Source of the DNA: Aigarchaeota archaeon
Lineage (GTDB): Archaea; Thermoproteota; Nitrososphaeria_A; Caldarchaeales; Wolframiiraptoraceae
NCBI GenBank assembly: GCA_025059205.1
Contig: JANXDS010000001.1
Coordinates: 425,582 to 476,005 of the forward strand
DNA: 50,424 bases
Direction of reading: 5' to 3'
Positions within the stretch are counted from its first letter, which is position 1. Every line of letters begins with the position of its first letter. Both the position numbers and the translations under genes were made by a program. The notes under the pieces were generated by a model, which ran no database searches, was not told the DNA's origin, and saw nothing but the letters and a program-made list of their open reading frames with translations. Positions 7,249 through 24,522 of the stretch are shown here, piece after piece.

Positions 7249-7331
7249 AAGCTTTTTACACGCGATGTTTTATGGTAAAATTTGCATGCGCATCAAGTAT
7301 TATCATTAGGTTGTCTGAACGCTCTAAAAGA

Positions 7332-7339
7332 CTTTAAAG
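7332..7339 (+). promoter_or_regulatory. TATA box of tRNA-Arg
   Basis: CTTTAAAG preceded by a purine-rich element (AAAAGA), about 25 bases before the first base of the tRNA, which is the usual archaeal spacing. Confidence 0.6.
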
Positions 7340-7360: not shown

Positions 7361-7450
7361 GGGCCCGTAGCCTAGAATGGACAGGGCGTCGAACGAAAGC
7401 GCGTAAGCCTTCGGAGCCGGAGGTCGCGGGTTCGAGTCCCGCCGGGCCCG
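7361..7450 (+). tRNA. tRNA-Arg (anticodon TCG) with a 15-base intron in the anticodon stem
   Basis: The acceptor arms GGGCCCG/CGGGCCC, a D arm GCCT/GGGC and a T arm GCGGG-TTCGAGT-CCCGC are intact, with G73. Removing bases 7392-7406 restores the anticodon stem TCGGC/GCCGG and loop CTTCGGA (anticodon TCG). The intron lies between positions 29 and 30, a non-canonical site. A strict BHB can be drawn: helix 7386-7389 with 7101... is not needed, since 7386-7389 pairs with 7401-7404, and the 3-base bulges CGA (7390-7392) and AAG (7405-7407) fall exactly on the splice sites. No CCA is encoded. Confidence 0.93.

Positions 7451-13837: not shown

Positions 13838-16910
<3,073 letters not shown>

Positions 16911-24434: not shown

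Positions 24435-24522
<88 letters not shown>

Follow-up and report, generated by a model that had tools for sequence, protein, structure and literature searches.

A tRNA-Arg(TCG) gene with a predicted 15-base intron at the non-canonical position 29/30 in an Aigarchaeota genome

Thirteen of the 45 tRNA genes of Ca. Caldiarchaeum subterraneum contain introns, which have been described there at many non-canonical positions (PMC3293823); non-canonical tRNA introns are also on record for the Thermoproteales and for further groups of archaea (PMC3218864, PMC4033280). Loop-bearing splicing endonucleases have an established link with such introns, and broad specificity depends on the lysine K44 in the loop of Aeropyrum pernix EndA (PMC6379350). 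A literature search of partial coverage found no paper on the Arg 29/30 intron or on Terraquivivens tRNAs. The gene described here lies in a window, the whole 50,424-nucleotide stretch of DNA that was analysed, from a 1.19-Mb, 97%-complete assembly of a member of the Caldarchaeales (Aigarchaeota) whose congeners are Ca. Terraquivivens. On the sequence evidence, a 15-base intron is almost certainly cut out by the cell's tRNA-splicing enzyme, and we are highly confident that the tRNA-Arg(UCG) gene is functional and carries a small archaeal intron at the non-canonical position 29/30, predicted to be spliced via a relaxed bulge-helix-bulge (BHB) motif.

The gene consists of two exons, the intron and a probable upstream element, as follows.

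7361-7450, + strand: interrupted tRNA-Arg(TCG) gene; sequence and coordinates match the earlier description
7361-7391, + strand: 5' exon, tRNA positions 1-29, from the cloverleaf parse; intronless homologues match
7392-7406, + strand: 15-nt intron AACGAAAGCGCGTAA at position 29/30, the sole excision with 5/5 anticodon-stem pairs, at a site interrupted genus-wide
7407-7450, + strand: 3' exon, positions 30-73, with anticodon TCG at 7411-7413
7331-7339, + strand: probable TATA box ACTTTAAAG, 22-30 bases upstream of the gene, from upstream sequences compared by eye

The acceptor stem (7/7), D stem (4/4, one G-U) and T stem (5/5) were complete, and CCA was not encoded at the 3' end (7450). Removal of 7392-7406 produced the anticodon stem TCGGC/GCCGG, the loop CTTCGGA and the anticodon TCG, so that the gene is interrupted outside 37/38 and excision restores the cloverleaf, as in the BHB class of archaeal non-canonical tRNA introns. 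The initial annotation had proposed both the tRNA-Arg(TCG) identity and this excision; the identity was borne out by the cloverleaf and by intronless homologues with identical exon sequence, and the intron proved correct to the base. The unspliced sequence scored below the gathering threshold of the Rfam tRNA model and was misread by ARAGORN as tRNA-Val(AAC), in both cases because the anticodon stem is interrupted, and the spliced 75-nt sequence was called tRNA-Arg(TCG). An unconstrained fold of the precursor did not give the cloverleaf.

The motif at the two junctions has the following parts.

7386-7389, + strand: exon strand of the BHB central helix, GCGT, tRNA positions 24-27; register established over 27 introns
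7401-7404, + strand: intron strand of the central helix, GCGT, giving the pairs G-U, C-G, G-C and U-G
7390-7392, + strand: 5' bulge CG^A, expected to be cut between 7391 and 7392
7405-7407, + strand: 3' bulge AA^G, expected to be cut between 7406 and 7407

Two 3-nt bulges and a 4-bp helix were thus present at the junctions exactly as first drawn. The description as a precise BHB held for the presence of the motif and failed for its quality: the central helix contains two G-U pairs among its four, the outer helix consists of three Watson-Crick pairs, an A.C mismatch occupies the first inner position and there is no stable inner helix. The window copy is better called a weak, relaxed motif. Likewise, the C7394-G7399 pair said to close a GAAA loop exists, and because of the A.C mismatch it is a lone pair. 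The efficiency with which this copy would be cut is uncertain, owing to the two G-U pairs and the missing inner helix. Since the chance that a shuffled intron forms all four pairs of the central helix is about 0.014, the window motif alone is moderate evidence.

The comparative evidence is decisive for the predicted 29/30 intron. It includes 27 distinct introns, many of them of common descent and hence not 27 independent tests. Between bases 24-27 of the exon and the last four intron bases ahead of the 3' bulge, 107 of 108 cells were paired, against 38 (s.d. 4.7) expected from shuffled introns, and the helix was fully paired in 26 of the 27, even though the introns vary greatly in their interiors and in length (12-30 nt). 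When the register was slid by one base, 6 and 0 of the 108 cells were paired; a slide of two bases left 87 paired, as the GCGC of the helix has a two-base period.

The interruption marks the whole genus. Introns of 14-15 nt were present at 29/30 in both tRNA-Arg(TCG) and tRNA-Arg(GCG) in 6/6 genomes, and these introns have diverged. The pattern searches had no mismatch tolerance, so that counts are of genomes with a matched gene and a missing match does not mean an absent gene; in these terms a strict Arg(TCG) pattern matched 19 of 101 relatives, including the six interrupted genomes of the genus and three family members (G007, G019 and G021) with uninterrupted genes. A looser pattern, run on 398 genomes of the phylum, again separated interrupted from uninterrupted genes in this way. 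The interrupted genes were those of the six congeneric genomes, of a Caldarchaeum MAG within the order (SZUA-1515, G035) and of seven members of a family, f14, that includes Bathyarchaeota (the G343 sequence is identical to the named locus L074); every other matched gene, including those of three more members of the same family, was uninterrupted. A contig scan, from which the archaeal matches alone were used since there were many bacterial chance matches, placed the intron, among the matches listed, in Ca. Terraquivivens tikiterensis, yellowstonensis and ruidianensis and, beyond Terraquivivens, in Caldarchaeum, several Bathyarchaeota and one groundwater thaumarchaeote. The tRNA-Arg(GCG) gene was uninterrupted in the sister genus with matched genes (g2); in G016 (genus g5) it carries an insert.

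In the source genome the tRNA-Arg(GCG) paralogue (L209, G000:C4:64600-64900, - strand) has a near-identical 15-nt intron, AGCGAAAGCACGCAA, at 29/30 and was likewise missed by the Rfam tRNA search. Its motif is strict, with four Watson-Crick central pairs and a two-pair inner helix with a GAAA loop. The tRNA-Gly(TCC) gene (L032, G000:C3:69539-69631) is also interrupted at 29/30, and its 3' junction, GCGTAA^GCCTTC, is common with Arg; the interrupted gene was matched in 5/6 genomes of the genus, and the central helix of its intron is fully Watson-Crick.

A census compiled from individual genomic loci parsed 42 tRNA genes, 23 continuous and about 19 with inserts. The 13 cleanly parsed inserts lay at 37/38 (four), 30/31 (four), 29/30 (three), the D stem at 23/24 (one) and the D loop (one); six longer inserts may hold two introns or D-arm introns. 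D-arm or adjacent introns are apparent in tRNA-His, Pro(GGG), Ser(GCT) and Cys (L177, L178, L210 and L212 of G000), and L030, L172, L175 and L176, at >105 nt, may hold two introns. In tRNA-Asp(GTC) (L174, G000:C1:296719-296793) the assembly has acceptor-stem mismatches (GCCCTGG/CCATGGG). Within the window, tRNA-Gly(CCC) (24436-24522, - strand) has a 13-nt canonical intron, TCGTATGGGGCAA, at 37/38 with a strict BHB, and its spliced anticodon loop, GCCCCGG, has C, not U, at position 33. A 23S rRNA gene occupies 13838-16910 (+ strand); 16S and 5S rRNA had no match in the window at Rfam gathering thresholds, and the rRNA genes may therefore be unlinked.

The five Arg tRNAs found (TCG, GCG, CCG, TCT and CCT; the CCG gene, L020, did not fit the parser and was read by eye) are the usual archaeal set. 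The TCG gene is single copy and the only one found with an anticodon matching CGA codons; 39 long ORFs contain 46 such codons, so that the TCG tRNA is needed. A decaying pseudogene with a chance 15-base insertion that is never spliced would fit the weak motif of the window copy, whose expression is predicted from sequence. This explanation is very unlikely, however, for several reasons, 1) the exons are intact, 2) no other TCG tRNA was found in a nearly complete genome, 3) the site is interrupted in all congeners and the intron ends are constrained and 4) a TATA-like element upstream is conserved, its ACTTTAA being kept in 5/5 congeners when the upstream sequences were compared by eye, which makes 7331-7339 a probable promoter element.

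That the intron is real and cut in another register, such as 28/29 or 30/31, is highly improbable: excisions shifted by one base do retain 4/5 anticodon-stem pairs, but in a scan of excisions giving a 75-nt product with the D arm in place only 7392-7406 gave 5/5 together with a 3-4-3 bulge-helix-bulge, no junction with a better fold emerged, one-base slides all but abolish the helix in the comparative set, and the homologues that lack the intron in related genera continue without a break over the junction and fix the exon sequence as GTCGGCC. A custom cloverleaf-plus-motif parser also ranked 29/30 first, with an 8-point lead.

A functional gene with a 29/30 intron would require an endonuclease of broad specificity, as had been predicted, and a search for two subunit types found both. 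The genome has two PF01974 (EndA-type) genes, L001:1216-1785 (104.6 bits) and L002:1465-2034 (59.1 bits). The best match of the catalytic (alpha) subunit was the A. pernix enzyme 3p1z (170.8 bits); its loop GYYGKPLGIPKPK aligns with A. pernix GYYGQPLDVEKPR, GKPLGIPKPK standing opposite GQPLDVEKPR, so that the Crenarchaea-specific loop (CSL) and the Lys44 equivalent are kept. The catalytic Tyr, His and Lys are kept as well, and orthologues have the same motif. The second gene is more weakly related, which fits a structural subunit, and separate catalytic and structural genes are the arrangement of (alpha-beta)2 EndA as read from the genes. Exactly two EndA-type genes were found in the source genome, in all congeners and in 39 of the 45 genomes searched. 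Most genomes of the order, including those without the 29/30 intron, have two subunits; therefore this type of enzyme predates the intron.

In the proposed pathway, the tRNA-Arg(UCG) precursor would be transcribed, an (alpha-beta)2-type endonuclease would recognise the relaxed BHB formed by exon bases 24-27 and the intron 3' end and would cut at 7391/7392 and 7406/7407, and the 5' and 3' exons would be joined by a tRNA ligase, presumably of the RtcB type. The anticodon stem would form only after splicing, yielding the CGA-matching tRNA-Arg(UCG).

As for the origin of the intron, tandem exon duplication was considered and dropped; copying and pairing are indistinguishable, since helices of the GCGC type are close to palindromic and the introns of Bathyarchaeota retain GCGT facing a GCGC in the exon. 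A distribution check of possible copying from the tRNA-Gly(TCC) intron placed the Gly intron both within the genus and in one distant family, a distribution compatible with either direction of copying. Short 29/30 introns with the common 3' end GCGTAA^GCC occur, among the matches listed, in Terraquivivens, Bathyarchaeota, a single Caldarchaeum MAG and a thaumarchaeote and are missing from sister genera; the shared end is partly forced by pairing with the exon. We tentatively suggest, as a rather doubtful possibility, that position 29/30 of tRNA-Arg and tRNA-Gly(TCC) is a recurrent landing site for short introns, which would imply repeated gain, lineage-to-lineage transfer or copying between tRNA genes.

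The tRNA-Arg(TCG) intron is real, well explained and ordinary for the Caldarchaeales, and such introns are already well described. Standard tRNA searches miss or mislabel this essential gene. The genus also offers a clean presence/absence case: two Arg isoacceptors are interrupted in it, the sister genera are without the short 29/30 introns, and the enzyme is in all. This gives one more instance of the established association of intron gain with splicing enzymes of broad specificity and leaves the overall picture unchanged.

Ca. Caldiarchaeum subterraneum (PMC3293823), also of the Aigarchaeota, similarly has many tRNA genes with canonical and non-canonical introns and BHB motifs; its named positions are 24/25, 45/46 and the D-, V- and T-arms, whereas the present intron lies at 29/30 and characterises an entire genus together with a few distant lineages. 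In Pyrobaculum and other Thermoproteales (PMC4033280, PMC3218864) there are likewise short introns outside 37/38, strict or relaxed BHBs and an (alpha-beta)2 endonuclease, a likeness by description, and the present genome has fewer non-canonical introns. The catalytic subunit aligns over its full length with A. pernix EndA (PDB 3p1z; PMC6379350), loop and K44 included, and activity on relaxed motifs is predicted for the present enzyme.
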